Assembly: GCF_000003815.2 (NCBI RefSeq)
Contig: NC_049990.1
Coordinates: forward strand, 12,950,771-13,014,770
Reading direction: 5' to 3'
Length of the DNA: 64,000 nt
Origin: Branchiostoma floridae
Lineage: Eukaryota > Chordata > Leptocardii > Amphioxiformes > Branchiostomatidae
In this document: positions 1,401 to 64,000 of the stretch, one piece after another
How the letters are laid out: every line of letters starts with the position of its first letter
Position numbering within the stretch: position 1 is the stretch's first letter
Position numbers and translations under genes: made by a program
The notes under the pieces: generated by a model
What the model was told of the DNA's origin: nothing
Database searches by the model: none
What the model saw: the letters and a program-made list of their open reading frames with translations, nothing else

Positions 1401-2475
1401 TCAAATCAAATCATGCTTTCTTTTTTCGTTTCTGGAGTGCAGAAAGATCTGAGAGGTGTGAGTTGAAATCAGAGTGGTCGTATTTGTGACTAAAAGTTTT
1501 TGTAGCATATTTCCCCATTTGCTAAGTGGGATCAAAGTTGGCACATTTCTTAGTCATTAGAAAGTTACAACTGTTTCAAGTTTCGCTTCTTTTGGTTAAT
1601 GGATGAACTAGTCTACAAAACCTTTAATCAACAAATCACGTATTCGCCTATGTATATGCGTCAATCCAACAGGCTCTAACATCACACTGTAGCTGAAGCT
1701 GCAAAAGAAGAACTATTAGAAGTTCAGAAATGAGAGTTGACAAGTAACATTCTTCATTCTATAGGTGTAATTTCAGCATTCCACTGATCTTCTGACAAAC
1801 TTCCAATGGTGTGGTTATTTTGAAATCAACTCAGTCACTCATAAAAACCTGAAGGAAACATTTAGAACGAACAAGCCTTCAAACTCGGATCGTCATGACT
1901 TTTGGTATAGCTTAAGTCATATGCCATATGGGTCAAAATTGATTATTTAGATCTGAATTTAATTTTACAGAATTAATGAGCAATTATGCAAATTGGGACA
2001 TCATTTACATAGAGTATCAGAAATTGCTATTATAGCCCTCTTTCTTAACATAGATTTTGCACGTGTATTATTTGGATGGAAGACATGATTAACTAACCCG
2101 GTTTATGCAAATGAGGACCTTATTTACATGACAAAAACATAGTACACCTGTTATAAAGGTTAAATCATTTGGCGAAGGTATGGGATCATGGAACTCTAGT
2201 ATTGATTGTGGTAACCATTTCCCAAGTGGGCGTCGAAAAAATTTGACCTTGTAATTAATCAAACACCAACCAACCCCCTAACGGGTGCCAAGAAACGTTG
2301 AGTCGATATATTAGAAATATTGATGATTGCTAGGATGCTCTCATCACTTTGTTAGTACTGAAACGACAACAGTCTCAGTCAACAAAATGAGACAATGTCT
2401 TCAACGTGACTCACCTGTGAGTTCTCGATTATCACATACAAATGTTCAGGAAACAAGGGAGATTTCTTTACGCAC
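1401..2475. repeat. Non-coding DNA with one copy of an octamer-containing dispersed repeat
   Basis: From about 1800 to 2200 there is a repeat with paired ATGCAAAT/ATTTGCAT-type octamers (for example near 1985 and 2105). It ends with a GGTATG...GGAACTCTAGT string near 2176-2198. The same combination recurs at several places in the window. The rest shows no gene. Confidence 0.5.
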
Positions 2476-7840: not shown

Positions 7841-8192
7841 CCTGCCTCAATGAGATAGACATTGTTACCACAGTGTTGTTTTAGCCTGCCTCAATGAGGT
7901 AGACATTGTTACCACAGTGTTGTTTTAGCCTGCCTCAATGAGGTAGACATTGTTACCACAGTGTTGTTTTAGCCTGCCTCAATGAGGTAGACATTGTTAC
8001 CACAGTGTTGTTTTAGCCTGCCTCAATGAGGTAGACATTGTTACCACAGTGTTGTTTTAGCCTGCCTCAATGAGGTAGACATTGTTACCACAGTGTTGTT
8101 TTAGCCCGCCTCAATGAGGCAGACATTGTTACCACAGTGTTGTTTTAGCCCGCCTCAATGAGGTAGACATTGTTACCACAGTGTTGTTTTAG
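7841..8192. repeat. 44-bp minisatellite, 8 copies
   Basis: Exactly eight units of 44 bp (8 x 44 = 352) run end to end. Unit landmarks in order are CCTGCCTCAATGAGGTAGAC, ATTGTTACCACAGTG, TTGTTTTAG. Only a handful of substitutions separate the units (the first has GAGATAG, two late units have CCCGCC, one has GAGGCAG), so it is young or homogenised. Each unit contains the near-palindrome CCTCAATGAGG. Confidence 0.95.
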
Positions 8193-9200
8193 CCGATCAA
8201 AAAGTCGATGCTTAATCACGAAAACGACATTAGTGCTCAAGCTAGATATCCAAGTGCGTTTGATTTATAACCAGTCCACGTCGATGACTGTTTATCGATT
8301 GGGTCTGGACAACTGGAAACATCTGGCAGGATTCTTAGAGCGAGGTTTACGCTTCAAAACGTAAATACAAATTCTGTACTGTACATGTGTCTATCCACTC
8401 TTCAGTAAAGATATGATATAGTTAATATAATCTGACAATTTTACAAATGTTGATGTATCAATGAAGTCCAAAATTTTCTAATCCATGCTTAATGATGTTC
8501 CCTATTTAACTTTCACATGTCACATGAGATATGAAATTTCCCAAAATGCTTTTTTCTTAGATTTCTATTTATTATTGAAAATACGATAACATTTTCTTTT
8601 TCAATGCCTCTAGTATAATACGGAATGAGCTTCTCTTCTCCGTAGGTTCTAAAGAAAATTCCATTTCCTGTCCTCTCACCGCTCACCAGCAGGGTACAAA
8701 CGCAGGAGTAGGCCATCGCGATCCCCCTATTGCCTTCGCCATAAGGTTATGTTCGCCATAAGGTTAAGGTTAAGAAATAAGTGGCGGACGTGCCCCCACC
8801 CCTCCACCCCCAATAAAACGTATGGACAAATTGCACGTACGGTGGATTGTGCCCTTAGTTTAAGTCAACAGCATCACTCGGTAACCTGTTGATGGATTTC
8901 ATGGCAGTTTGTATGTCAGTAGCGGAGGCGGAAAGGGATGTCCAGTTAATTCGAAAATGGTCCACCTGGCATTTTCCGTCGATACTGCAGCAGGCTGTTT
9001 ATGTTGGTGTTTTTGTTTATTAATAACAAGAACTCCAGAAGCTGTGGATGGTTTTGCATGATAATTGGTAAATATGTAGGGGTTGGGAACAGGACAGTTA
9101 AGAACTTAAGATCTATAATGGGCATCCTAGCGGCCAGTGATGAAAGCAGCTAGTTCGTGGCCTATGCCCAAGGATGGGCACGCAGCAGGCCTAAGTAAGT
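8193..9200. other. Non-coding; partial inverted-repeat element end near 8780-8870
   Basis: No gene is supported. Around 8780-8862 the string GGCGGACGTGCCCCC, then ACGTATGGACAAATTGCACG and GGATTGTGCCC, matches the right end of the GGGCACAACCC element at 53576-53870. A tandem CGCCATAAGGTTA pair occurs at 8738-8768. Confidence 0.4.
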
Positions 9201-17406: not shown

Positions 17407-20400
17407 TCACCGCCATATCCTACAGGTGTTGTCTTTACTTCCTGCAAAATAGGAGTCATCAATGTTTCTTTCAAAGAAATCTCAGCAACATTGTACCTAA
17501 AATTTACGTTTACTAGATGGGCAACATTTGTGAGCAAATACAGTACATTTCAACCATCTCCCACCCCACACAAAAATATCCCTAAAAATCCCCATATAAA
17601 TCATTCTGAAGTGTTTATGCCATATGTATTCTTTGGAAGTTTGAATAAATTTTTGTATGACTAACTTGCATATGCAAGCCTGGTATTCATTCCATAAGTT
17701 CACAACCATAATGACTTTGATATCATAGGAATTAAAAGGATTTCTGTCGATATATGAATTATAATACATTAAAATTGAGGCAGAAGTTCAAAGTTCTAAA
17801 TTTTTGTTCAAAATTTTTGTGCCAAGTTTAGGTTACGTTTTCACTTTGTGGCTGACATTGTCTGTTTATGTGTGTCTTAACAGCATAAATCATGAGTTAT
17901 CATTAAGGGATTGTTAGGAATTTTGTTGGTAGGTGTTAACAAAAGAACTAGTTTGATAATCGGCCTCCTGACGGTATTCTCTAAAACTGCTGCAAATTTC
18001 AGCTTTTGGAAGCAAAATTTCAGTTATGAACATTCAATGGTCCTGATAAGGGGTAGGGACTGGTACACCATAACAGTATAAACCTTTTTTTTCTTTTTGG
18101 ACCATTAAAAAAGACCTAAAATTTTGGAGTGATTAGAAAATAAACAAACTAAGGCCATACCAATTTAATTTGTTGGTTCTCGGATTTTTTCATGAAAAAT
18201 ATGAAGCGACAGGGCGAAAAAAAAAAAAAAAAAAAACTTCTCTGATGGCAAAGCCATTGCTGAATCTGGCCATGGGGGCTCTCGTATCATACTCACTGAG
18301 ACACTAACGGTACAGTAAGTGCTACCGGTACATACATTGCTATTTTCGTATGTTATTTTCACGATAATTGATTTTATTGATTTCTTTAACAAATTGTACT
18401 AAAATATTAGAATTATGGTTATTGATAAAAGGTGACATTGTAATTATGAATTTTATATGTACCATCCTGGTTTGATTCAATTGGAAACAACAGTCTGAAA
18501 ATGCAGTCTTCATTTTTGTCTTTTATTCATGGAGGTCAAAAACCAAGTGTCCATCTTACAGTAACTGAAACTTATCAACAAACCCCAAGGGGAACTCAAA
18601 ATAATTTAATATTTGCTCTGCTTGACAAGAATTCCCAGTCTTACTGCAACTCTGTGCTACCTACTTTGTCAAAGTTCTACTCTTTAAAAGTCAAAAACCC
18701 CTGTGAACTTACTACTAATTACTAGTACTTTGGGTGTATATGAACAAGCCCCAATTTGGCCAAGGGAACTCATATTTTTCTGTTGGCTAAATACTTCGAA
18801 ATAATTTTTGGTTTGTCCATCAAATATCAAGGAAATTATATTTCATCAAACCCACCTGCACATCGTTTGGGCCCTCGATGCATATCTGTTAATTATGTGA
18901 CAGAAGAAGAAGACATGTTTTCATAAATAAATTTTGTCTGTTGGCCAAGAAGTTTCTTCTGACTTCTGTCCCCGGTTAAAAACTGTACACACCACAAAAA
19001 ATGTGGCTTTCCTGGATCCACAGACATGGTATTTTCTTCTCCTGCTACTGCACTACCTTCTACTACACTTCTTCAAGCTCCAATTCTACTCTATCTGTAC
19101 TCAAAATTATCCGACTCCGGTACTCTTTCCCCTTCTATTTTTCTAGTGGCGCCATTTTGATTTTAAGACTGATGCTTCTGATTGGCTAATCTCCGTCACA
19201 TGATCACTTAGGTCACAACTTCAAAGAGAGACACCTATCAACTGATTGAAAAACTGCAGCCTTCAGATAGCCTGGGTAGAAAAAAATAATTTTTTTTTTT
19301 TTTTTGGTTTTGCGATTTTTTGAAGCGGCGATTCCGAGAACCAACGAATTAAATTGGTGTGGCCTAAGCAGGCATTCACATGTCTCTTTACTGCTTACCT
19401 CTGCTGATGTACAATGCAGTACCTGATGTACAATGCAGTACCTGCTGATGTAATTGTTATCCCTCTATTGTGAGGAATTCAGCACCAACGACAGGTATAT
19501 ATGGTAACTTGTGTGTGGAGGGTTTTCAGCACCAAGGGCAGGTATGATAACTTTTGTGTGGAGGGTTTTCAGCACCATGGGCAGGTATGATAACTTATGT
19601 GTGGAGGGTTTTCAGCACCAAGGGCAGGTATGATAACTTTTGTGTGGAGGGTTTTCACCACCAAGGGCAGGTATGACAACTTTTGTGTGGAGGGTTTTCA
19701 GCACCGAGGGCAGGTATGATAACTTTTGTGTGGAGGGTTTTCAACACCAAGGGCAGGTATGATAACTTTTGTGTGGAGGGTTTTCAGCACCAAGGGCAGG
19801 TATGACAACTTTTGTGTGGAGGGTTTTCAGCACTGAGGGCAGGTATGGTAACTTTTGTGTGGAGGGTTTTCAGCACCAAGGGCAGGTATGATAACTTATG
19901 CAGTGCTCGAAATACTTTTTCAGCCAGGTTGCGCCATCAACATTTCAGGTTGCCCCAATTTCAAGTTGTTACTTTCTTTGAATGGGCTACTTATCCATTA
20001 TCAATTCTTCCAGTTATATGTAACTATGTAATATGTCTTATGTTATCAAAAAAATAGATACAAAAGCTTATGCATGTATGTGCGGGAAAAGCAGTGTCCA
20101 GCTGCAAAATTTCAGGTTGCCCAGTGTGCAACCTGGGTTTAAAATTAAGTTGCGCAAAACAAAATGTGGTTGCATTTTCAAGTGGGCAAGTGGGTATTTT
20201 GAGCCCTGTTATGTGTGGATGGTTTTCAGCACCAAGGGCAGGTATGATAACTTAGGTGTGGAAGGTTTTCAGCACCAAGGGCAGGTATGGTAACATGTGT
20301 GGAGGTTTTTCAGCAACATGGGCAGGTATGGTAACTTATGTGTGGAGGGTTTTCAGCACCAAGGGCAGGTCTGATAACTTATGTGTGGAAGGTGTGTACA

Positions 20401-29400: not shown

Positions 29401-32400
29401 TTTACAAGTCTTGTCGAATGATCCAGTAGCAATCTTATCGCTGTAGTGTGACAAGAACAGACTGTCCATTAGAGATACACATACAGTATACATAAAGAAC
29501 ACTGGGAACAAAAAGAAATTGAAAATCTCATTACCTGTGTACCTGTACATGTGTACCTGTAGCATGTGTACCTGTAGCATGTGTACTTGTAGCATGTGTA
29601 CCTGTACATGTGTACCTGTACATGTGTACCTGTAGCATGTGTACCTGTAGCATGTGTACCTGTACATGTGTACCTGTAGCATGTGTACCTGTACATGTGT
29701 ACCTGTACGTGTGTACCTGTAGCATGTGTACTTGTAGCATGTGTACCTGTACATGTGTACCTGTACATGTGTACCTGTAGCATGTGTACCTGTACATGTA
29801 CCTGTACATGTGTACCTGTAGCATGTGTACCTGTACATGTGTACCTGTAGCATGTGTACCTGTACATGTGTACCTGTACATGTGTACCTGTAAATTGTTT
29901 AGGCACAGGTCCAAATCTGACCAGCTGGTGTACCTGTACCTGAGCAAACTAAATACTACAGGACACCTGGTGAGGATAATCAGAAATTAGTTACACATTT
30001 CCAATAGTTTAGTATTGTTTTGAGACTAAAATATGTAAATTCTCATTAAAAAAATGACAATTTACCACTAAAGAAAACAGTCGGGCACGTATTTAACAGG
30101 TTGGGCAGGAGGTAGGCTCTGGGACTCAATATGGCGAAATGCAAAACGCAAATAACACCATACAGGGGCGCAGCGCATAGCGCCTTCTGGAGGCGAAACA
30201 TGAGTTTTTGATTTCTTCCCTTGCGAACGTTTTGCACATTTGGTGCCAATCGCATTTCGCCATATCGGGTCCAATGGCCTACCTGTGGGCAGATCGGAAT
30301 TGCTTTCAAATTGGTACAGGACTGGTGCAGATCCGGACTTGTACCTAATCTCAATGTACCTGCATGTATCTATCACAGCTTTTATCCCCAACTGTTTATT
30401 TTTTTATTTTTTTTTAATTCACATTTCTTTAAAGAGGATGAGACGGAAAGCAGACCCTGCTTATCGAGGTCTTCTCCTCATGTACAGAAGGACACACATA
30501 CATGACTACAAAACGTGAAATGACAAAGTCAAGAGGTAATGATAACGACATGAAATCAAACAACATGAAATCAAATAACAAAATGACGTGTAGCTGGCAT
30601 ACAAACTTAGAAGTAATCAAATAAGGTTATAAATCAATTAAAACAACCTGTCTATTGAACACACTTGACATAACTATATGAAAATAAACAAGGAATCAAA
30701 TAACAGAGTGACATGTGGCTGACAAACAAACTTAGAAATAATCAAATAAGGTTTAGCTAAAACGATCTGTCTGTTGGATGAACTTACTAGTAAATACAAC
30801 TGTTCATCATCAAATAAATGACAGTTTCACGACTTATTCCAGACCCTGTCTAGTTTCTCAGCACTTACAATTATATGTATAAAATCTAAGGTCAATTTGC
30901 GAGACAGTTGCAGAATCATAATATAACAACAATCTTTATTGACACGACAAAAGTACAGCGACTTTCGTAAGGTCTACATGTATAACAACTACTTACAGTA
31001 CAACTAAACACACATATATGGATATCTATAGGTATGACTAAATCAACATATAGGGTCTAGCATGTCATTAACACTATTAGTTCTACGGTATAAACATTCG
31101 TGGATATATTTGCCTACTTGTACACAGTGAGGGTTATCGCCTCCCAGAATGTAGTTGAATTTATCTATCGAACAGAGAGTAGCAAATTCTTTAGAACAAG
31201 CGGAAAGTAATGTGAACAGCTCTGTGCGTTTATCATTATATCGAGAACAATCCAGAACAAAGTGACGTTCGTCTTCGATGTCATTTGGGCAAAATGGACA
31301 AAACCTCTGGTCACGGGGAATTTTAGTATATCTTCCGGCTTCTATATTTAGTTTGTGACTACTGATTCTCATCTTTGTAATTGCTCTACGAAGTTCGAAA
31401 CTGTGTACATTCGAAAGATACTTCTTTTGTCCGTATCTTTCCTTTAGCGTAGAATAAATGCAAAGTTTTGAGTTATTCTGGATAGAAGAATGCCATTCTT
31501 GTATGTATATATCCTGTAAGCGGAGTCGTAATTGGTCGGTTAGCATATTAACATGATACAACCTCGGGTTTGTCCATACATGTCCAAAACCATTATAGTT
31601 GAGAATGTCAGTTACGTGATTTGTCCAGTCGTATTCGCCGGAAAGTAAAACATCATATGCTTCACGTAGTAAAGAATCTTCGGGTAAGTTTGCTAGACGG
31701 TGCCAGTATTTAATTAATTGTATCTCAGCATTGATCGAAATGGGAAAGGTTCCTAACTCACCACGGATGCCGTCATTTGATGATTTCGCATGTACTCCGA
31801 GTAAAAATTTTTGGAAACTCATGTCAATGGTGTCAAATTCTGGGATACTAGTATGTGAAGGAAGACGTATATTTTCAATTGCGAAGTTGTCATTTTCTAA
31901 TTTCATTCCTGATGCCAGTCTCAATAATCTATCCTTGTCTGATCTTTTCTTAAAATGGATGACGTAAGTATGAGTGAGGTCCGAAGACACACTCTTCCTA
32001 ACAGTTGCTGGGAGACCTCCCTCTAGATGGAGTTTGTTTAAAAAGGAAGAGAAAACAGTTTTGGGTGAAGATTCTGGAATTTGTTTTGATACAATAATTT
32101 TGATTGCTTTAGAAGTTTGGTCAAAACATGTGAGTTCGGCTCCGTACAGTAAAATAGGCAGTACAAACTTGTTGAAAAGGCTCATTCCTAGGTGAATTGG
32201 AATGTTCTTTTCTGAGAATAAAAGTGACTTTAGTTTGAATAAAGCTCTCATGGCTTTATTCTTTAAATATTTCCTGGCTGCTTTAAACTTTCCCGAAGAA
32301 GTCAGGGGAATACCAAGGTATGTATAACTGTCGGTTACTAGTATTTCTTTGCCATATATATAGAATTTGTTTGATAATCTCTTAATAGAACCTTTTGTAA

Positions 32401-45374: not shown

Positions 45375-45705
45375 CCTATAAACAGAAGTGGGCTACACCA
45401 GTCCCACCCATTAGCAGAAGTGGAATATCCCAATACCACCTGTTAGCAGAAGTGGAATATCCCAACACCACCTGTTAGCAGAAGTGGAATTTTCCAGCCC
45501 CACCTGCTGTCCCCAATCCCAGCTGTTCACTTAGTGCAATATCTCAGTTGCAACTTGCACATTTAACAGAAGTGGCATATCCAACATATCCCAGTCCCAC
45601 CCGTTAACAGAAGTGGAATATCCCAGCCCACCTGTTACCAGGAGTGGAATATCCCAGCCCCACCTGCTAACAGAAGTGGAATATCCCAGCCCACCTGTTA
45701 ATGAT
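45375..45705. repeat. About 32-bp tandem array upstream of DAW1
   Basis: About eight units of the type CAGAAGTGGAATATCCCA then (GC/AT)CCCACCTGTTAA, with indels. A stray unit at 46098-46130 (TTGGAATATCCCAGCCCCACC) suggests that LINE-derived sequence at 45715-46090 was inserted into or next to the array. It lies 200-530 bp upstream of the DAW1 start. Confidence 0.8.
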
Positions 45706-49659: not shown

Positions 49660-52600
49660 ATGGTAAGTTTTATTTCAATGTAAACTGCTGCCAAATGGCT
49701 TAAGCTTGGCGTCTTCAGTTTAGCAGTCCTTGAACCCCCGGCCGGTGACTGTTACAGAGACAAGTTTTGTTGGCGTTCAGGGATTAACGTTAACCTAACG
49801 TTTTGTCAAGTTCTCAGTCATAATGAATATATCTAACGTTACCTTGAGGATACCTGTGGTGCCACGCCTGTCTCAGTCCGAGACCTGCATGACTCCTTCA
49901 CCTCCAGTAGAGTAGAGACTAGAGTAGCAGTAGAGTAGAGACTACTAGCAGTAATAAGCAGTAGAGTACTGAGTAGACTATCAGTAGAGTAGAATAGAGT
50001 AGTGTAGTGTAGAGTAGAGTAGCAGTAGTGTAGAGTAGAGTCTGACTTCTACAGTAGAGTGGAGTAAAAACTCAGCTTTGCAGCAGGGTTTTACATGAAT
50101 TTCTGTAAAGATGTTTTCAGCACAACGGTTCCGGCATGGATTAAACCGAAAGAAGTGGAAAATCATCAAGGTAGCACTATCAAAGGGGTTTTCGGAAAAC
50201 CCTGTCCAGTCCAAACAGGGAAATGGGGCGGAAAACCCTGTCCAGTCTAAAAAGAGGGTCTGCATAGGGGTTCCTGTCAATGCTTAAAACTATTACTTCA
50301 GACAGAACCTACACTAAACTGATACACATAACTATAGAATCGGCAGCATAATGAGTGATCCAAAGGTACAACATGCACACAAAGTCAGTTCTGTCAAATG
50401 CAAAGTACCCAATTAACACTTATCTGGTAGGACATGAGGGGAGAGAATTACACCCATTGTCCATCAAACAATGGATAGTGAGTGTCCATCAATTTCGGGT
50501 TGTTAAATAGTGGCAATACGTTACAAAGACAGGCTTTGAAAGGTTTTCTTTGAATGATAAGTGTGCAGCACTCATTTTGAGAGCTGGTCTGTTTAAATCC
50601 TGGTTTAAGAATGACCTTAGTACACAATGTTAAAACATTACATATATTTTACAATGCACTACAATAAAGCCGAGATGGTATTTTTCAAACCCTAGTAGAA
50701 GTTGTGAGCTGTATAGAACTATGTATCCTTTTAAAAATAATGTGTTTTATTTGCAAAATTATGCCGTAAGGCTAATAGCATGTTCAGTCTCAAAGAGTAG
50801 AAGTTTTTTATATGATGCACAGAAGTATCAATGATGGATGATTTTTGTTAAGTTATAATTTTTGTATGACATTGTGTCACACTTCAAGTTGATGTTATTT
50901 CTGTGCTTAGCCATATCAAAGATAAAAAATGTTGTTGTATACTAGTACTTAGTAGCTTACAACGTATACCCCCATGCAGACCCTCTTTTCAGACTGGACA
51001 GGGTTTTCCGCATTCCGGACTGGACAGGTTTTTCCGAAAACCCCTATCAAAGAACCTGTATCGTTACTTAGGCGTCGACATCGGAATTAGAACTATGCCG
51101 TATATGCTGTGTACCTGCCCTGTAAACTGACTATTGGCTAGCCTGGGTACCATTCTCTGCTGGTTGGCTTTGGGTTGCTTTACCCGGCCCAAGGCTAAGG
51201 CACCGACCTGCTTTTGTCAGCCTGTCTGATTAGCTGCCCTTTGAGATTTGGCAGCCAGAGCTTGTAGCCGTGGGTTGTTTAGAGTGGTGTGGCTCTCCTC
51301 AAGCATGGAACGAAATTCCTGTTCGAGAGACAGCCTTAAGCAATGCTAATCATTTTCACTTGTCTTCATTATTGAGGAAAGTTGCACATATTGCCTTTCC
51401 CAAGGACCCAAGCTTTGTGTCATATTAACAGATTCAAACCCAGAACCTCCCGGTATGAGTGAAACACCCTGCCGTTACGCCACACAACGCCACGGTGATG
51501 CCATAAATGTCCTGACAAGCCACCAAAAGACTGGAGATGCTACCCTGAATGGTTCATACCAGCCCCCAAATCAGTGATTCATTTGTTAAGGGGATGCAAT
51601 TAGAAATAATATGGTACAATCAATATTTATATAATAAGCTATTACAGTGTATTAGACCTTTCAAACACTTTCTGAAGGTGTCTTGTTTGTGAGTGTGAAC
51701 TTTTGTGGACTGTTTATTTTCATACTGCATTATTTACAAATTTTTAAAATAGTCTTCTTCTTCCTCCACTACAGTCTACTGCCCAGGATGATCGATACTC
51801 CTTCATTGCAGAGTGGTACGACCCAAATGCTGCTCTGATGAGGAGGTACCAGTTCCTGTACTATCCAAAGGACAGTTCCATTGAAATGGTGAGATCTAAA
51901 CATTTCAGATAGTCTAAAAGTAATTAATAGCAATTCGCAAGCAACTAGATATGATTTGGGAGACAGTCCGATGTTAAGCATCTACTACGTTACATTACTG
52001 ACACGAAATCATGACATAATTTGTCCCACTGAGATCAATTAACCCAACAAACATGTACCATATAGCACCAAACAAAGTACACAGCACTGGACAAAGTTAT
52101 TTTGTATTGAAAGTGGTACTGGAAAATTAATTAGCACCTACGAATTATTATCCTGTTGAATGTTGCTTTGGCAGCACATTGCAAAGGGCAAGATTTTTCT
52201 TGTCCTTCCCCCTCTGAAGGCCGCCACCCCAAATAATTTTCTGAAGGAAGTTCGAGATGTAAGAATCCAGCTGATTGAATGTATGTATTGTATGTATCAC
52301 GTCAACATTTTCTGTCAGGCATGTTTGGTGGTACTGTTTTTATGACATTGTACAATAATCTATTATTTCCTTTATTCTAGTTTGACATCAAGAACCATCG
52401 TACATTCTTAAAGCGTACTAAATACGAGGGAGTTAGCCAGGAAGACTTGTACATCGGAAGCACAGTGGAAGTATTTTCTCGGCAACTGCACTTTGTTGAC
52501 TATGGAGACGGCTTTACAGCCAGGAGCCTTGGTGACAAAAAGGAAAAGTAAGTCACTTCTGGTATCGGACTGGAGTTTCCCTTAAGATTTAGGAGGTTAG

Positions 52601-55600
52601 CGGACAGCACAAAATTGATACAACCCATGGGCTTTTCAGGATATACAACAAATCTATGCTCAGCTGTAACGATCACCAAGCAATAGGGAGCAAAAGTTAG
52701 ACAGACAAGAGTGCACTTCCAGCCTATTACACCAACCTTCCGCCAACTCCGGTCAGATTTGAACTCCGACCCGGAACCTTCTGAACACCTGTGAGACAGT
52801 GGTCATGATTTATCGTATCTAATTATCCAGATATTACATGTATGTGATAACTAGAATTTGGCAACCCTTTTTTCAGAAATGCAGAAAAGAATCTGTGTAC
52901 TGCCTTTTGTCGAACTACTCGCACACAATATCATATCATTGTCTCATTGGCCCAGGCCGTATAGTATTGACCAAGGTCACATACCAAAGAGCCCAAAATC
53001 GATCTTGACCTATGTCTTCCCAACATCTATCACATCGACCCACATACCAAATATCATATTCATAAATTATTAATGATTGTAATCCACCAAGAGGTTCATG
53101 CATTATGTAGCAGACTCCACCCTGCAGTAAATCTGGCTTAACCTCCTCACAAGGTAGATCTGGCCCATCATGACTAAATCCTTCACTGCCAGATTTAGAC
53201 TGTCCATACCTGTTGCAGGCTTTACGATTAATATTTTCTACTTTCTAACTGTCAGTGTTAATTTCTGATGACAGGACCCTGGGAATGATCAAGCCTGATG
53301 CATTGGACAGGATGGGCATGATCCTGGACATGATAAGTCACAAAGGGTTACTGGTTACAAAGGCAAAGATGGTACTGTTGTCCAGGTAGGTTGAATCATT
53401 CTCTCACATTCATTGAATTATGTTTTCATATTGTTGTAAGTTTTTGCTGGTGTGTGTTGTATTGATTTCTTTAATGACAGAATCAGGAGGGATGAACACT
53501 GACGCAAGGTACCACAGTTTGGCAGTGGCTAGAGAGTTTGCCACTGTCACTTTGGCAGTAAAGCTAAGGCAGTAAGGGCACAACCCACGTACGTGCAAAT
53601 ACATGCTGTCTACATGCAAAAACGTGGGCAATCATTTGGGATCCGTAAGTAGTATAAGTAACCGCCTCCGTACTTGTAGGGAATACGACTGATTTTGGAG
53701 CATGCAGACACAGCATAGAACTTTACGTGCAGGCAAAACTTCATGTTTCCGTGTTGACGTACTCCCTCCCTGCTCTTGCCAGTCGTTCCCCACGTTTTCA
53801 GAAATACTTGGCGGACATGGCCCCCCCAAAAAAACGTATGGACAAATTGCACTTACGACGGGTTGTGCCCATAGCTTAAAGGAGGGATCTGGCTCCCCAC
53901 CCTTGTAAGGTTTTGACAAATTTGCATCTACCTTGAAGTTCCTTCCCGTTGGTGAAGGGCATAACACAATGTTGCCAAGGACACTGCCAAGCTATAGATT
54001 GGCCCAGATGTCCATATTGTATCTTTACCGGCCTGTCAGGACTCCATTCTCCACTAATCGTATGGGTTACTGTACATGTTGTAGACAGTACTTTAAAAAT
54101 GGTTTTACCCTTGGCCTGACTGTCTGTAAACTGCTACCATCAAGTTTAACTCTCATTATTCCACAGGATACAATGTAGCAATGCACTGCCAGTTGAGAAA
54201 AATTGAATTTAAAGAGATTTAAAGAGATGTACCAGAATCAGTAATGCTGATGAGCTATGTACACTTCAGATACTTAGGTGTTCAAGACTAGGCCCCCTTA
54301 ATAATGTTTTTTTATGTGCCTGTATTATGGCACCCGGTGCTGGTGGAATTATGAGTTGATGTTACCCCAACATACCGGTAGTAAGAATATGCTTTATGGC
54401 AATATCAATAAGTGGTGTAGGAATTCTGAAATTGGTAATTGTTACGACCAAAGGGCATTTATACTGGCTACACAAATACAATAACTTACTGAAGTAGAAT
54501 TTTTAGTAGATTGTATGTCACTGCCAATTTGACTGGAGGAATACATCAATAAGAAGAACTTGTTTTTCAGGGCAGAGGCTGCACAGTTCTATATGGAACA
54601 TCAGTCCAAGCCCTTTTTCAAGTAAGTGCTATCAATTTAAAATCTGACTCATCAAAATTCCTTAATATCTCACTAAATGTCAATTTGAAGTTGGTAAGTT
54701 TATCTTCCATACAAATTATTAATTTGACAATTTTAGGAAGTAAACCAAGTTGTAGTTTCAGTGCAAATTCAATGTTTATCCCTTTCTTAGTGGACTTCTG
54801 GACTATGTGACTTCTGGACCTGTAGTTGCCATGGAGATTATGGGAGGTAATGCTATCGGAGTGTGGAGAGAGATGATTGGCCCAACCAATCCCAGTGATG
54901 CTCGTAGTCAGAACTCACAAAGTCTGAGGGCTAAGTATGGTACAGGTGAGACACACCTGCTTTTTTCTCTGATCTAGTGTAATACAGGTGAGACAACACC
55001 TACTTTTTTCTCTGATCTAGTGTAGTACAGGTGAGACACACCTGCTTTTTCCTCTGATCTAGTGTAGTACAGATGAGACACACCTGCTTTTTCTCTGATC
55101 TAGTGTGCCTAGGTGAGACACACCTGCTTTTTCCTCTGATCTAGTGTAGTACAGGTGAGACACACCTGCTTTTTCCTCTGATCTAGTGTGTCCAGGTGAG
55201 ACACACCTGCTTTTTCCTCTGATCTAGTGTAGTACAGGTGAGACACACCTGCTTTTTTCTCTGATCTAGTGTGTCCAGGTGAGACACACCTGCTTTTTCC
55301 TCTGATCTAGTGTAGTACAGGTGAGACACACCTGCTTTTTCCTCTGATCTAGTGTAGTACAGGTGAGACACACCTGCTTTTTCTCTGATCTAGTGTAGTA
55401 CAGGTGAGACACACCTGCTTTTTCCTCTGATCTAGTGTAGTACAGGTGAGACACACCTGCTTTTTTCTCTGATCTAGTGTGTCCATGTGAGACACACCTG
55501 CTTTTTCCTCTGATCTAGTGTGTCCAGGTGAGACACACCTGCTTTTTCCTCTGATCTAGTGTAGTACAGGTGAGACAACACCTGCTTTTTTCTCTGATCT

Positions 55601-58600
55601 AGTGTAGTACAGGTGAGACACACCTGCTTTTTTCTCTGATCTAGTGTAGCACAGGTGAGACAACACCTGCTTTTTTCTCTGATCAAGTGTAGTACAGGTG
55701 AGACACACCTGCTTTTTCTCTGATCTAGTGTAGTACAGGTGAGACACACCTGCTTTTTTCTCTGATCTAGTGTAGTACCGGTGAGACACACCTGCTTTTT
55801 CTCTGATCTAGTGTAGTACAGGTGAGACACACCTGCTTTTTCCTCTGATCTAGTGTAGTACAGGTGAGACACACCTGTTTTTTCCTCTGATCTAGTGTGT
55901 CCAGGTGAGACACACCTGCTTTTTCCTCTGATCTAGTGTAGTACAGGTGAGACACACCTGCTTTTTTCTCTGATCTAGTGTGTCCAGGTGAGACACACCT
56001 GCTTTTTCCTCTGATCTAGTGTAGTACAGGTGAGACACACCTGCTTTTTCCTCTGATCTAGTGTAGTACAGGTGAGACACACCTGCTTTTTCTCTGATCT
56101 AGTGTAGTACAGGTGAGACACACCTGCTTTTTCCTCTGATCTAGTGTAGTACAGGTGAGACACACCTGCTTTTTTCTCTGATCTAGTGTGTCCATGTGAG
56201 ACACACCTGCTTTTTCCTCTGATCTAGTGTGTCCAGGTGAGACACACCTGCTTTTTCCTCTGATCTAGTGTAGTACAGGTGAGACAACACCTGCTTTTTT
56301 CTCTGATCTAGTGTAGTACAGGTGAGACACACCTGCTTTTTTCTCTGATCTAGTGTAGTACAGGTGAGACAACACCTGCTTTTTTCTCTGATCAAGTGTA
56401 GTACAGGTGAGACACACCTGCTTTTTCTCTGATCTAGTGTAGTACAGGTGAGACACACCTGCTTTTTTCTCTGATCTAGTGTAGTACAGGTGAGACACAC
56501 CTGCTTTTTTCTCTGATCTAGTGTAGTACAGGTGAGACACACCTGCTTTTTTTCTCTGATCTAGTGTAGTACAGGTGAGACACACCTGCTTTTTTCTCTG
56601 ATCTAGTGTAGTACAGGTGAGACAACACCTGCTTTTTCCTCTGATCTAGTGTAGTACAGGTGAGACACACCTGCTTTTTTCTCTGATCTAGTGTGTCCAG
56701 GTGAGACACACCTGCTTTTTTCTCTGATCTAGTGTGTCCAGGTGAGACACACCTGCTTTTTCCTCTGATCTAGTGTAGTACAGGTGAGACAACACCTGCT
56801 TTTTTCTCTGATCTAGTGTGTCCAGGTGAGACACACCTGCTTTTTCCTCTGATCTAGTGTAGTACAGGTGAGACAACACCTGCTTTTTTCTATGATCTAG
56901 TGTAGTACAGGTGAGACAACACCTACTTTTTTCTCTGATCTAGTGTAGTACAGGTGAGACAACACCTACTTTTTTCTCTGATCTAGTGTAGTACAGGTGA
57001 GACAACACCTACTTTTTTCTCTGATCTAGTGTAGTACAGGTGAGACAACACCTACTTTTTCCTATGATCTAGTGTAGTACAGGTGAGACAACACCTGCTT
57101 TTTCCTATGCACTTTTTAAAGTTTTCAAAATTAAAAAATCGCTACATGTAACAAGTTGTTTCCAAAGTTAGGGTGCATACTTTATTTGAGGTTATTGCAG
57201 CAATAAATGGTGAAAGAGGCTAAAATAGGGCAGTGATTTTTATAAGCTGCAGCAGGCAAATGACAAGTTTGTAGAGCCAATGACATTAGGCATTTATGCA
57301 AAATAACCCAGGAAAAACATCTGATTTAGAAATTTCAATTCACCCAGTTCAAGGTCTGTTCAAACTTAGTGTAGAATTGGTGCGCATCTTATTTGAGTTT
57401 TTCCAATGATTTTAACTTTCAGTCCCACAGATCTGTCTGAGACTTGCCCCAAATCGGGTGCGTACTTTATTTGAGAAAATACAGTAGCTGCATTACTTTT
57501 TGAAGGACCCTCATATGAGTACCCATGTCTCCTTATCTGTCCGCCCGAGTCTGCCAAATCTGCAAAAGATTGCAGAAAAGGAGATCAGTGTTTTTGGCAC
57601 ATCAACTAATGATGCAAGCGAATGATTGATTGAAAGAAACATATGAGTTCAGGCAAAAGTCGCAATGCACACTTCTCACCTCACCTCACCTCACCGGTCC
57701 CATAGCCTCACCGGCGGTAGGGGCAGCACATCCATCAACATGGATGCACACTTACCAGCTCAAAACTACCTAATATGGGGGTGGTTCAGGATTTGGCCTG
57801 TTTCATTGCAACTAGGAGCGTTCAGACGGGGCCACATTAACCATGCTCTGGTGGTTTTGGCTCGGAACCCGAGGTGTAAGGCTTGTGCATGTGAACAGGA
57901 CATAAAATACATTCTGTAAGATAATGCCTGCACAATGTTGCACTCTTGTGTTTCTCATAATGATTGTTTTTCTATTTCCTCTGTATTTATCTAGTGGAAC
58001 CCATGATGTCGTGGGTTTCAACAATGTGCATTACATCATCGCAATCATCATATTATATTAGATATAGTATAATTTTTTTATGAAAACATGTTTCATTCTT
58101 TGAAGATAACACCAGAAATGCAGTACATGGTTCAGACTCCAAGGAATCTGCTACAAGAGTAAGTATCCCCAAGTCTGTCATTTTGTTGTACTGCAAAGTT
58201 TATCTTCTAACACTGTAACAGGTTTGAACTGAAGATATGGTTACCGTAACTATTGTGATGACAGGTTAAAAAGCTAACCAGCAATGTACATTGTATACTA
58301 TAAAAAAAAGGCTCTCAAAATCTCATCATTATGTTGGGCCCAAATATGTATTCAATTTGTCAAGTTTAGTTATGCAGCCCTAGTACAGGCTTTATTATAT
58401 CACCATGTATGCCTTGGAGTAGGAGTTGCAAAAAAGTTTAAACATGTACTTTTTTATTTTATACATGTATTGCATGTACATGTAACTATTTGTCTTCAGC
58501 TGTTTTAAGACCTGTGACATGCTCTCAACAGTTGTTGTTTGTCCACTGTGGATGTCATTCATAGTGCAAGTCAGTATATGGTCATATATGTACTTAAGTG

Positions 58601-61600
58601 CAGGAAATGTTCCATCTTCATTCTATTAGGAAGCTGAGTTTTTCTTCCCATCTGCTGGCCCGAGTCGTGCCAATACTGCCCAGTTCAGCAACTGCACCTG
58701 CTGTGTCATCAAGCCTCATGCTGTCCTGGCAGGTGAGCAGCACTGTGCAGAATGGTCACCTGCAATCAAGCATTTTAATGCTATTATTGATATCAAAAGT
58801 GACCATTCTCTGCAATTGTCAAACTACCAATTAGGGCTGTGTACCTGTGTACCGTACCTAAAAATTGTTTAGGTACAGGTCTGGACCTAAACATCTGTGT
58901 ACCTGTACCTGTACCTAAACACACTAAATCACTTATTTTTACCAATTTTTAAGATTGCTGGACAAGGAAATCCCGAATCAACAATGACAATTGTGATAAT
59001 CTTATACAGTTGAAACTCAACAAAACTTGTTTTGGGATTCAAATATGCAATTCCCTGTATAAAGATGACAATTTATCACTAAAAAAGACAGTTAGCTACA
59101 TGTTTAACTTACATAAATTATACAGTCATTTGTACTTGGTTAAAATTCTTTAGGTATAGGTGCAGGTCCGTACCTGTACCACCCATGTACCTGTATCTGT
59201 ACCTGTACCTGAAATTTGTTTAGGTACACAGCCTACTACCAATGAAGTTGGGAATATCAAACTTTGATTTACTTTGACTTATATTTGTGTATAATAACAA
59301 GTTTATTGATGTCCAAAACAATGCCCAAGGGTTAATTGTAACTTGGTCAGGATTATCTTGACACCTGGTATTACCTTGAAGATCGCTAAGCAACTTTTGT
59401 TCCTTCCTTGGCTTAGGTAACGATAGTTGACCTTTATCCGTGGGGTAACCTACATGTATATTCGTTGTTTTCAAAAGCAGGGTATTAAATGGGGCTATCA
59501 TGCCAACGAATGTGAGTTCAAACTGCTGTAGCGCTATGTTTTGAAACTATTACAATATGAAGCAACCGTCCGTCGACTTGATATCTCCAAATGTGCTGTT
59601 TTGAACGGATATAGGTTACCCCACGGATAAAAGTGAGTTTGTCGAGTTTAGGACCCCTTTAAAAATTCATCAAAACTTGACCACTCTCTGGCAACTAGCA
59701 ATGGAGTGCCACGAGTTCGAGTGCATGACAAAGCGTGCCATGTTAGGGCACCTACCGTAACGGTTGTAATACAGTATGTGTTTTTTACCTTCATTTGACA
59801 ACTTTTAATAAAACTACAGGAAATGCACTAACTTAAAGGTCATTCATCTTACATGTATGTTGAGCACCTGTACCCTACATCATGTAAAAATTTGCCAACT
59901 ATATATATGTTGATGGCAATTACAAACTGCACTAACATGTACATGAATGATTGTAGCTACATCACACAGCTGCAAGCGTAAGACAGCACCAGTCAAAGTC
60001 CAGGACTGTGCATGTCTGAGTTAGCATGACGTGTCTCTGCATAATTTTACCTGGCAGTGCTAATTTCTTCAGTTGCAAACAAGTTTCGTCAGTTTGATGC
60101 TTCGAGTCAGTTGGGATGGATAAAATGGACTTTCCAACCGCTATATAAACACCCTTTCATGCAGCCGTTTACTTTTTGGTTACTAGGTATTCTTTTGATA
60201 ATACATTTTTATGTCCTTAAAGTCTTTGATAAGGGCACTCTCTATAATAATAGCCTTCAAGTTATTATTTGGTGGAGGTATGTGTTTGTGGAACTCTAGT
60301 TTGTAAATAAAGCTTCTTTGTTTCTCCCCTTCAGGCCAGACAGGGAAAATTGTCCAGGCTATTGTGGATGCTGGGTTTGAGATCTCTGCTCTGCAGATGG
60401 TAAGTTCATTTGCTATTCATCATAATCCTAATTTTCAGTGTTGTGAAGAACATCATTATTATCATGTTGCTGTCTTGCAGTATCAACGGCAATAAATGTT
60501 ACCTAGCACTGTGGATTTCACCCAGTCATGCAAAACACTCGCTGACTGGAACAAGTTACTTGTTAATGAAAATTTACTTTACTTCAATCAAAACAGACCG
60601 AGGTCATGTCAATGTAAAAATAAGTCCTCTCTCCCAGTCATCATTGCACTGTTCAAAAAGATCTTCTAACACCCATACCATATTTTCTCGATTAACTTTT
60701 TAGACGTTCAAAATCCAAATTAAAGGGGTCGCATTTGACACTGGTAAAGTCGGGTTGCTTCATTTGTAAAGTGTCTTTCCCAAGTCAATCAGAATACATT
60801 TCTTTCCCATACAAAGAACAATTTGGAGATATGTCCACCCGCCACTGGTTGCAAAATTTCAGAAAGGCTGACAATAGTATTAGGTCAAAAGTATGTCTAC
60901 ATGTATCAGATTACTTTACAGCTAAAGAATTCCTTGCATTCTAAATGACTCTGGTCCCTTTCCTTTTCATTGTGGAAAAATTATTAATTATAATAATCAT
61001 AAATTATTGTAACAATTTTAGACGGTTAAAATGTTCAGAACCATTTTCCTACTGTGCCCTTTACCAGAACTGCACTTATTGTACGACAGTTACTGTTGGA
61101 TGCAGTTAGTCAACTTTGGTCCCCTGTTGTACCTCATCATGCTTGTACCTTAAAGTTTGTAGTTGCCCACAAATTTAAAGCGTCATGCAAACCTGGGTCA
61201 CAGTCGCCTTACAAGATTTGTAGGTGTTCAAGGCAGGCGCAGAACACGGGAATATTCAGGCCGGACAATGAAGGCCGGAGTAAAACACACTCCACTGTTC
61301 AATTGTACATTTTAAATATGTATTTACGGTTATTATTATATTTTTTAATAACATATGCTATGTAAAAAATGAAGGCGAAAATGGCAAAATTGATAAAAAG
61401 TGTACATTCACTGAGCAAACTACAAGAACAGTGAAGTCATCACCCAGTTTTGAGTTTCAATTGGCTGCCACTCTTTTCTGAGTTTTGATTGGGTAAATTC
61501 GGAACAAAATTGAAAACCCTACAAAAACAAATAGTTTACCTTAAATATTCATTAAATATAGTGAATGATTAAAAAGAGTTTGACTTCTGTTTGTGATGTG

Positions 61601-63615
61601 CATGTAATGTTTTCCAATTCCAGTTTCACCTGGAGAGGGCTAATGCTGAAGAGTTCATTGAGGTCTACAAAGGAGTTGTTGCTGAATTCAATGTAAGCGT
61701 AGAAAAGTAATCTTTTGTGAGCAAAGTTCTCTAAATAAACTAAAGGAAAAACAGTCATCTTTTATTCAGGTTAAGAAATGCCAGGAACATAACATTTGCA
61801 GTGACCTCCTTACCTATAGAATTTTTAAATTGTCGGCATGAATCAATGTCCAACAAGAATCTTAAAGAAATACTTCTACATGAATTTACTGCCTATCACT
61901 ACCAAAAATGCTTTTTCTTGTTTATCTTGTTTGGCTTCCTCACAGAAAATTTATCTTCCAGGAAGAAAATTATTCTGTCCCCAAGAAATGTTAGAAAAAT
62001 GTGCTTGTCCATGGGGCAAGCAAATTTTTTCTTGTTAAGTTTTTGAGAAAATTTGAGATTTGTTTTCTTGTCTTTCTCAAAATGCCTTTTCTTGTTTATC
62101 TTGTTTTGCTTCCTCATAGAAAATTTATCTTCCTGGCAGAAAAAAATTCTTGTATTTCTTAAGAGTTGAATCTGGTTAGAAAAAAACAAGAATTTCTAGA
62201 TTTTTGTTTCTTGCACTGTAAGAAAAAATAAGGAGATTTTGCTTAAATGTCTAAAAAAAATTTTTTAGTTTATCGTTTTGCTTGAATTTTTTTTTACATT
62301 TTCTTCCTGCAAGAACATTTTTCTTCATACAAGAATTGTCCATGGGGCAAGCAAAATAAGAAAAAATCATTTTTGGTAGTGTGTATACATAGTATACTTT
62401 CTTTTTGTGCCAATAACTTGGGGGGGGGGGGAGGATATAGGGGTGTGGAAAACAATAGTTACCTGAATCCAACTTCTAAGTATGTTGAGTTAATCTGTTC
62501 TTCCTCCCTAAAGGACATGGTGAGTCAGCTGTGTGCAGGGCCTAGTGTTGCCATGGAGATAAAGAGCAAGGATGGAAACACACCCCAGAGTTTCCGGGAG
62601 TTTGTGGGACCGGCTGATCCTGTAGGTTTATGCTTCTTTAATGGAGTCCTATATATAAACTCTGGAAAAGTGTTATTTTCTGATCATAGCTTGATAATAT
62701 ATACAATAAAGTACCCACTAGTCCAGATGAATGACTGCATTAAATGTGCCTAACAAGGCCTGACAAAAAGTTAGCTCACAAAGCCAGTTTCAGAAGCAAT
62801 ACACATTGAAAGAAAAACTTGAACTATATCATTATGACCATTTGATATCTTGTGCAGTTGGCCTTCTTGTGTTGGCCGATTATTTTTACATTGAATCTAT
62901 TGGAAAATAACAATGCTGTCTCCATGGAGCTGCATAATTTGATGTTCCATTCCCATTATAAAGAAATACACTGGAACAGTTGCACTTCATACAGTAATTG
63001 CTCATTGACATGAAATACAGTTACAATTCATATGATTGAGCAAGGTACGAATGTCAATATCAATGACAGTGTTTAAATGACCATTCAGTTTTTAGTGTAT
63101 TTATTGGACCACCCCTTGATTTGACTTAGTAAATAGAGAAATACGGTGGAGAAATTCACAAAAAATACACATTGTATGGAAGTTTATCTTTTGAAACACA
63201 TGAATTTATTTCCTTCTGCAACAAATTGTTAGGCAACAAAAAAAGTCTAATTCAATATGAAGCTCTAACACACACACACACACACACATTTTCATGTACA
63301 CACACAAATACACAAAATGTGCACACGCACCAAGACACACACATGAACACACCCTCTGAGGCTGCCACGCTGACTTACAAAAATACAGGTATCGTACACT
63401 TTGAACTAGGTTACAGATAACAATTTTTGTACATTCATCAGGTGCATTGCTATTCACCGTCAGTGTCAATAATAATGACATATCATTTTCTTTCATGTGT
63501 ACAACAGGAGATAGCCAGGCATCTGAGACCACGGACCCTAAGGGCCATATTTGGTAAAGACAAGATCCAAAATGCTGTTCACTGCACAGACTTGCCAGAG
63601 GATGGACTTCTTGAG
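49660..63615 (+). CDS. NME7: NME7: nucleoside diphosphate kinase 7 (DM10 + two NDK domains), 3' exon outside window
   Basis: Twelve exons on the plus strand: 49660-49662, 51775-51888, 52381-52547, 53275-53385, 54571-54621, 54791-54945, 58106-58158, 58630-58732, 60335-60399, 61624-61692, 62514-62621, 63508-63615, all GT-AG with matching phases, 369 residues so far. It begins [20 protein letters not shown] (DM10 domain, about 1-92). NDK-A follows with [11 protein letters not shown] and RNAVHGSDS (catalytic His about 208). NDK-B has CCVIKPHAV and [13 protein letters not shown] (His about 358). The sequence stops at LPEDGLLE; the usual short tail after this point must lie past 64000. NME7 family proteins bind the gamma-tubulin ring complex and are inner proteins of ciliary doublet microtubules. 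Exon 1 carries only the ATG. Intron 6 opens with a 2.1 kb minisatellite built on its own splice donor. Confidence 0.96.
49905..50050. repeat. Irregular TAGAG/AGTAG microsatellite in NME7 intron 1
   Basis: A run of AGTAGAGTAGAG variants with CAGTAGAGTAG and GTGTAGAGTAG interspersed. It is purine-rich on the coding strand, with no regular unit length. Confidence 0.8.
50185..51043. mobile_element. Inverted-repeat DNA transposon derivative in NME7 intron 1
   Basis: CTATCAAA flanks both ends (50177-50184 and 51044-51051). The terminal inverted repeats are about 90 bp: GGGGTTTTCGGAAAACCCTG then TCCAGTCC, a second GGAAAACCCTGTCCAGTCT, and AGAGGGTCTGCAT..GGGG, mirrored at the right end. Each end thus holds two copies of GGAAAACCCTGTCCAGTC. 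The centre is AT-rich and non-coding. The superfamily is not certain; an 8-bp duplication fits hAT. Confidence 0.8.
51140..51500 (-). mobile_element. tRNA-derived SINE-like element in NME7 intron 1
   Basis: The minus strand starts near 51491 with GGCGTTGTGTGGCGTAACGG (box A TGGCGTAACGG at 51482-51472). Box B-like GGGTTTGAATC follows at 51440-51430, about 31 nt after box A. Downstream comes CCTTGGGAAAGGCA...ACTTTCCTCA, a body seen in several invertebrate SINEs. No clear A tail is seen and the 3' limit is approximate. Confidence 0.5.
53576..53870. mobile_element. Short inverted-repeat element, Harbinger-like ends
   Basis: The termini are GGGCACAACCCACGTACGTG and, inverted, GGGCACAACCCGTCGTAAGTG. 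The left flank is TAA and the right flank ATA, so the 3-bp duplication is imperfect. A related right end occurs at 8780-8862 followed by TTA. It lies in NME7 intron 4. Confidence 0.55.
54941..57108 (+). repeat. 41-43 bp minisatellite built on the NME7 exon-6 splice donor
   Basis: About 50 units (2.17 kb at roughly 41.5 bp). Unit landmarks in order are TACAGGTGAGACACACCTG, CTTTTTCCTCTGATCTAG, TGTAG. The first TACAG is the last five bases of NME7 exon 6 (ends 54945) and the GTGAGA after it is the functional donor, so every later unit copies the donor. Unit variants are a 5- or 6-nt spacer (AGACA/AGACAA), T5-T7 tracts, TGTAGTACAG versus TGTGTCCAG before the GTGAGA, and rare CCATGTGAG and GATCAAGTG. 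A block of the array is duplicated with a 709-bp shift. Minus-strand ORFs ([13 protein letters not shown]..) are repeat artefacts. Confidence 0.95.
57109..58105. other. Rest of NME7 intron 6
   Basis: No exon before the acceptor at 58105. A GGGTGC.TACTTTATTTGAG string appears at 57170, in diverged form at 57379, and at 57458. A CCTCACC run with CTCACCGGCGGTAGGGGCAG is at 57678-57725, similar to a segment inside the LINE copy at 46.45 kb. Confidence 0.4.
58832..59235. mobile_element. hAT-type MITE with perfect 8-bp duplication in NME7 intron 8
   Basis: CTACCAAT flanks both ends (58824-58831 and 59236-59243). Termini are TAGGGCTGTGTACCTG and, inverted, TAGGCTGTGTACCTAAAC. Subterminal GTACCTGTACCTGTACC strings occur at both ends, plus AATTGTTTAGGTACAGGTC. 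The element is 404 bp and non-coding. It is the relative of 29530-30365. Confidence 0.88.
61897..62381. mobile_element. Inverted-repeat element with CACTA-type ends in NME7 intron 10
   Basis: The ends are CACTACCAAAAATGCTTTTTC and, inverted, CACTACCAAAAATGATTTTTTC. Inside, a segment of about 80 bp is directly repeated (61907 and 62080: TTTTCTTGTTTATCTTGTTT, then GCTTCCTCA.AGAAAATTTATC), and GTCCATGGGGCAAGCAAA occurs at 62010 and 62338. Flanks TAT and TGT do not give a clear 3-bp duplication. There is no coding capacity. Confidence 0.6.
63268..63288. repeat. (AC)n microsatellite
   Basis: About 10 AC units followed by an imperfect CACACA/GCACAC-rich zone to 63345, in the last visible NME7 intron. 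Confidence 0.9.
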
Positions 63616-64000
63616 GTACATGTGAGAACTAATGTCCTGTGCAGACATACATTGTACATTTTACAGTGCACTCATTCTGTAGCAAGGTTAGACATTCCTC
63701 GGCCATTTCCAGTCAGTGTCCCAACCAGGTCCATGTACTTTACTCAGTTTGCAGTAATTAGAAGGCTATGCAATTGGTTGAGCTAGGGCTTGTTGGGTCT
63801 GTGTGTAGGTCCACAGAATATAACTCAAGAGGTTGTGGATAGATCTCAATTTGGTATGTGTGTAGCAGTTGTGGAAAGTTCAAAAATGGTTTACCTGGAT
63901 TGTTATTTTACTATGGTACTGCAGCGGGCTTTGTATATTTGAGTGTTGTTTTATTCTATATATCGTATACTATTAGACACAAAAAATTGATGTTTAACAC

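Follow-up and report, generated by a model that had tools for sequence, protein, structure and literature searches.

A minisatellite repeating an NME7 splice donor in Branchiostoma floridae, probably an amphioxus mirage, and tandem donors across the genome

Introduction

A stretch of 64,000 nucleotides of the amphioxus Branchiostoma floridae (contig NC_049990.1, positions 12,950,771 to 13,014,770 of the forward strand; hereafter the window, with coordinates counted from its first letter) carries the gene NME7, one intron of which opens with a minisatellite that begins in the last bases of the preceding exon and repeats the splice donor about fifty times over. The array very probably belongs to the amphioxus 'mirages', that is, minisatellites seeded on an exon-intron boundary, lying inside the intron and spliced out whole. 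Repeats at exon edges, known from few lancelet genes, look common across this genome, and they seem to favour one particular splice-site sequence.

Published mirages include those in the Adh3 genes of B. floridae and B. lanceolatum (PMC3087553; also PMC3902484). Besides normal splicing, length polymorphism or somatic instability counts among the traits of the class. Mirages have been reported one gene at a time and were suggested to give rise to new introns (PMC3087553), and they leave splicing undisturbed in Adh3 and the globins (PMC3087553) as well as in Adh and troponin C (PMC3902484). No genome-wide survey of mirages was found in a literature search, which covered few subscription papers.

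The NME7 array and its flanking exons

The exons of NME7 were mapped by tblastn with a human NME7 sequence as query, and solved NME7 chains match the translated gene pieces (best 7ung, E 2.1e-77). The exon-intron boundary at 54945 reads GGTACAG/GTGAGAC (slashes mark splice boundaries), the next exon starts at 58106 as AAG/ATAAC, and the two exons join in frame on translation. An earlier reading of the window's letters, the first-pass annotation, had called the first of them exon 6; the exon is real, the number is that reader's own, with four matching exons mapped upstream (near 51790, 52381, 53275 and 54573).

Starting inside the last bases of this exon, TACAG/GTGAGAC is repeated in tandem. 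Tandem Repeats Finder (TRF) called the array with a period of 42, 51.6 copies and 94% matches, and splitting it at the conserved core yielded 52 units of 40-43 bp, the final one incomplete. Among the 52 TGAGAC cores, 47 read CAGGTGAGA, that is, exactly CAG/GTGAGA, and one reads ATGAGA. An acceptor-like sequence, CT[CA]TGATC[TA]AG, occurs 51 times and, together with the donors, bounds short pieces resembling micro-exons (36 TGTAGTACAG, 9 TGTGTCCAG and 6 variants). What the first-pass annotation had said of the anatomy thus stands: the NME7 donor is repeated roughly fifty times, the repeat is seeded on a real exon-intron boundary and keeps phase with the exon, identical donors run to dozens, and almost all units hold an acceptor-like site. 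E-box-type words (CAGGTG/CACCTG) number 94 in the 2164 bp of the array, whereas the remaining 61,780 bp of the window hold 43. Rfam and tRNA scans of the window gave no match at their thresholds.

Assignment of the array to the mirages is well supported, because the tandem unit crosses the exon-intron boundary, is unmatched elsewhere and is found in the right animal. In a DNA search of the assembly (513,431,437 bp in 431 contigs; very common words skipped), all eight matches to the unit fell inside C12:13005690-13007873, the NME7 locus itself, so far as this search reaches making the unit private to the gene. The host is marked as a cephalochordate by a class III alcohol dehydrogenase (ADH) exon with arrays at both edges and by clusters of fluorescent-protein genes. 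With a query derived from a lancelet fluorescent protein, 68 exon matches of up to 88% identity were obtained, mainly in clusters on contigs C4 and C17; a search with the GFP family profile gave no match and was uninformative.

Like the mirages of Adh3, troponin C, the globins BflGb6 and BflGb9, and PGBD5, the NME7 repeats begin at the boundary and repeat the splice site, and they occur in the same animal group, in a genome in which Adh3-type arrays are present. They differ in copy number (about 52, compared with 6 and 3 in two BflGb6 haplotypes) and in the make-up of most units, which hold an acceptor-like site as well as an inverted donor pair; NME7 is absent from the mirage genes named in the accessible parts of the known reports. 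The first-pass annotation had presented the NME7 case as singular, which did not hold, as it fits a described amphioxus class and tandem donors occur genome-wide here. A further likeness is offered by tandem repeats at exon boundaries of human duplicated genes, where repeats at exon edges vary and can create introns; those lie in segmental duplications and partly change transcripts, according to the accessible text (PMC2812944), whereas the NME7 array is not known to alter any transcript.

That donor-containing arrays occur at many places in the genome could also be read as the trace of a mobile, intron-making element or of a dispersed satellite. Introners, that is, mobile intron-generating elements, consist of a repeated sequence with splice signals in dispersed insertions, and the NME7 repeat likewise carries splice signals. 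Its unit, however, was matched at one locus only, with no dispersed copies in the search described above, and the units of the other arrays examined differ from it; we consider such an element extremely unlikely.

Origin of the array and choice of donor

As a mirage, the array would have arisen from a short duplication in NME7 comprising at least the final five exon bases and the ~24 bases with which the intron opens; this may then have grown by replication slippage, unequal exchange or both. It would be intronic and removed whole by splicing. The first donor would be the one in use, since it alone has the exon body and that exon's acceptor upstream, and we infer that it wins through exon definition. 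Behind each of the 50 later GTGAGAC donors the frame runs into a stop 10 codons past the exon, so that transcripts using them would be lost, and the reading frame argues against the array copies serving as donors. The array would then be tolerated because the first donor is used, and it is probably without function.

The first-pass annotation had instead suggested that the array might be regulatory, with copy number tuning functional NME7; in this reading, copy number or the occupancy of array sites would act on NME7 by way of donor choice, micro-exons or recursive splicing. This accords with the 47 identical donors and with the pyrimidine tract and TAG present in nearly all units, and two real NME7 acceptors likewise read TAG/T. 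The pieces of 9-10 nt are indeed there, but the 10-nt piece does more than shift the frame, as had been supposed: it reads GTG TAG, one codon and then a stop, while the 9-nt pieces are in frame and add Val-Cys-Pro or a variant (all seven piece types translated). Inclusion of micro-exons, recursive splicing and tuning by copy number are not supported: this common piece ends in a stop, and stops follow all 50 alternative donors. Introns from unit to unit would measure ~32 nt. Recursive splice sites are AG/GT sequences with a pyrimidine tract nearby, the tract and its AG being joined directly to the donor; in the NME7 units the tract and TAG lie 9-10 nt ahead of CAG/GT. In addition, the mirages on record splice normally, so far as the accessible parts of their reports tell (PMC3087553, PMC3902484). 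The branch-point motif yUnAy could be adduced on either side: within 15-45 nt upstream none of the 51 acceptor-like sites has it, compared with 7 of the 11 real NME7 acceptors; with the range widened to 15-50 nt it is present at 49 of the 51 and again at 7 of the 11, as in those 49 sites it sits at 46-48 nt, in the preceding unit. The outcome reverses with a cut-off of 45 or 50 nt, and the branch-point argument against these sites was dropped. On balance, a regulatory role is improbable.

Tandem donors across the genome

Tandem donors were counted as three copies of an octamer with 15-45 bases between them; the counts are of overlapping matches, some of them contributed by a few long arrays. 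Triple CAGGTRAG was matched 2374 + 2721 = 5095 times genome-wide, compared with 9 + 11 = 20 times for the pattern written backwards. With +3 changed to a pyrimidine (CAGGTYAG) the count was 654 (backwards control 199), and with -3 changed to A (AAGGTRAG) 335 (backwards control 104), whereas the single sites numbered 24, 26 and 18, respectively, in 246 kb. This comparison stands on a narrow basis of three 8-mers with their backwards controls and one acceptor 8-mer. The latter, TTTYCAGG in triplicate, gave 131 matches (23 backwards), far fewer than the donor octamer. TTTYCAGG is estimated to cover a smaller share of acceptors than the octamer does of donors, so the ratio of acceptor to donor arrays is not a clean measure.

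Counted by hand, the first 100 of the 5095 matches make up 14 arrays, all within the initial 1.83 Mb of contig C1, where CAGGTYAG forms 2 arrays and AAGGTRAG 3, also by hand count. At ~7 matches per array among these first 100, extrapolation gives roughly 700 tandem-donor arrays genome-wide. The 100 matches lie in C1:1-1834748, about five times an even share; the region is thus richer than the genome mean and not typical, and arrays may be denser near the contig end.

No enrichment of donors in minisatellites at large was found among the 28 arrays of a 264-kb set, in which AGGTRA occurs in 2 (p 0.45), and the related motif MAGGTRAG missed the INO80 array described below.

Could the decoy donors be silenced by their own sequence? 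In such self-quenching, each would be folded by its complement (CAGGTG...CACCTG) and the array could grow harmlessly. A perfect inverted pair is present in 42 of the 52 NME7 units, with a predicted hairpin of about -8.3 kcal/mol, and genome-wide the order donor-ACCTG-donor was found 596 times compared with 46 for a permuted donor-GTCCA-donor (one permuted control); the donor is followed by ACCTG in 3 of the 14 arrays on C1, where 60 permutations average 0.32. The corresponding single-site count, 4122 genome-wide, is without a permuted baseline. Stems longer than in shuffled sequence (p<0.1) occur in only 2 of the 14 donor arrays and in 2 of 28 arrays of any kind, and donor pairing lies on average just 0.7 z units above shuffles (17 units), so that the hairpin fails as a general rule of donor arrays. 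In NME7 the 42-nt unit folds no better than its shuffles (z -0.22), shorter stretches round the donor give z of -1.3 to -2.0, and the first donor, the one expected to be used, has the identical hairpin. We therefore give self-quenching little credence.

Other exon-edge arrays

The class III ADH exon mentioned above (E 6.1e-36), on contig C6, bears a minisatellite on each edge: the unit on the acceptor side measures 59 bp and contains CAG/GTGCTGG, that on the donor side measures 33 bp and reads ...ACAAAATCAG/GTGAGAACC, its array extending up to an N. These arrays fit the published Adh3 mirages. A further mirage repeats the tail and donor of an INO80 exon and lies outside the genes named in the accessible parts of the known reports; it was met in one of 20 positionally chosen 10-kb stretches, the other arrays of which were not compared with exon edges.

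Six of the 14 tandem-donor arrays at the start of C1 were fetched and inspected (L036 to L041). By inspection, five of them lie at exon edges (L036 could not be placed), two with a firm family match, and three are plain sense donors. In L039 the exon preceding the array matches TALPID3 (Pfam E 7.1e-8, above cut-off), while the arrays of L037 and L038 come after open frames that have an acceptor but match no family and, in L037, no solved chain either. In the remaining two the octamer is antisense to the gene and sits in an acceptor region, which belongs in L041 to a dynein heavy chain exon (E 7.3e-12) and in L040 to a P-loop open frame (family match below cut-off, no solved chain). These acceptor-edge arrays carry CTTACCTG or CTCACCTG, to which the favoured donor octamer is complementary.

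Weighing the mirage reading and a possible role of the octamer

Several observations weigh against the mirage account or parts of it. An exact 480-bp block in the array, together with TRF rows at periods 83 and 125, reflects either a later block duplication or an assembly fault, and a misassembly may have distorted the NME7 copy number. Sanger shotgun data, with the haplotypes merged, went into the published B. floridae assembly (PMC7269912); if the assembly analysed is that one, the copy number is for this reason not safe. Use of the first donor is a prediction from the sequence. When two donors are both occupied, the intron-proximal one is reported from classical duplication experiments to be able to prevail; on that ground the last array copy would be expected to be used. 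The seed of exon tail and intron does not clearly account for the unit's last ~13 bases. Outside TACAG, the unit resembles the exon tail marginally in an anchored comparison (p 0.03-0.06) and not at all in free local alignment (p 0.34-0.60), and an exon-tail ancestry of the whole unit was discarded. MAGGTRAG is not enriched among the arrays of the 264-kb set, with one case in 28, NME7 itself (p 0.13). Finally, donors of the types AAG/GTRAG and CAG/GTRAG are both common, and seeding on any donor would make their arrays about equally frequent; the counts disagree, and random seeding on any donor does not explain why CAGGTRAG is preferred to AAGGTRAG.

This preference can be rationalized if CAGGTRAG itself promotes tandem duplication, be it as DNA or through U1 small nuclear ribonucleoprotein or R-loops on nascent RNA. 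Position at exons would then follow from the donors carrying the octamer, which is the 5' splice site with the fullest pairing to U1 snRNA, and the reading is compatible with NME7 being a mirage. Along these lines, the triple counts and the arrays at the start of C1 (14 versus 2 and 3) set CAGGTRAG apart from octamers of similar single-site frequency, and in two of the six inspected arrays the octamer lies antisense at an acceptor region. The three plain sense donors among those six tell against it, as do the overlap of the matches, the extrapolated array number and the few 8-mers compared. We regard this reading as possible, with the odds against it. Amplification may be driven by the octamer and not by donors as such; in that case either the sequence has its own tendency to amplify or a factor recognizing it is responsible.

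Coordinates and further arrays in the window

Table 1. Positions of the arrays, exons and splice signals discussed (window coordinates unless a locus is named)
Feature	Position	Strand	Remarks
Donor-spanning minisatellite ('mirage', probable)	54940..57103	+	52 donor cores, units 40-43 bp; TRF, unit list, counts
480-bp block	55170..55649	+	Letter-for-letter copy 709 bp downstream, 55879-56358
NME7 exon ("exon 6" of the first-pass annotation)	54791..54945	+	Phase-1 end, ends ...AAGTATGGTACAG; tblastn, sequence, frame check, solved-chain similarity
Next NME7 exon	58106..58159	+	tblastn, frame check
NME7 exon matches within the window	51790..63639	+	tblastn
First donor, GTGAGA	54946..54951	+	Only one of 51 GTGAGAC sites with open NME7 frame; frame check
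First of 42 perfect inverted pairs, CAGGTG-(5-6 nt)-CACCTG	54943..54959	+	Predicted RNA hairpin, ~-8.3 kcal/mol
Class III ADH edge arrays	L009:1125-1529 and 1715-2038		Acceptor and donor edges
INO80 exon tail and donor, eight copies (...LLLTGTPIQNTMAE/GTAAGG)	L022:5087-5446	minus	E 2.1e-40

Upstream of NME7, the DAW1/WDR69 gene was mapped on the minus strand at window 45180-20490; its exon ending near 20492 is followed by GCAAGT, by inspection a GC-type donor. One 43-bp unit, TTTTCAG...GGGCAGGTATG, acceptor- and donor-like on the plus strand, makes up two arrays off the mapped exons (19500-19897 and 20209-20393), separated by ~300 bp of other sequence, the second of them ~100 bp past a DAW1 exon end. 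An array at 29532-29892 lies ~90 bp from a mapped DAW1 exon start, and further arrays of the window are located at 7841-8194, 45383-45701 and 49905-50041.

Implications

Within a single chordate genome, tandem donors are met thousands of times, with a strong dependence on the splice-site bases -3 and +3. It is tentatively suggested that CAGGTRAG is a genome-wide hotspot of tandem amplification in amphioxus, of which NME7 would be a large example. If this is true, a process reading CAGGTRAG (U1, an R-loop or a CAGGTR DNA-binding factor) turns exon edges into minisatellites, and the hotspot would link splicing signals to genome instability and to new introns. The questions raised are how a gene keeps to one donor when dozens are identical, and whether repeats and introns are seeded by the splice signals themselves.

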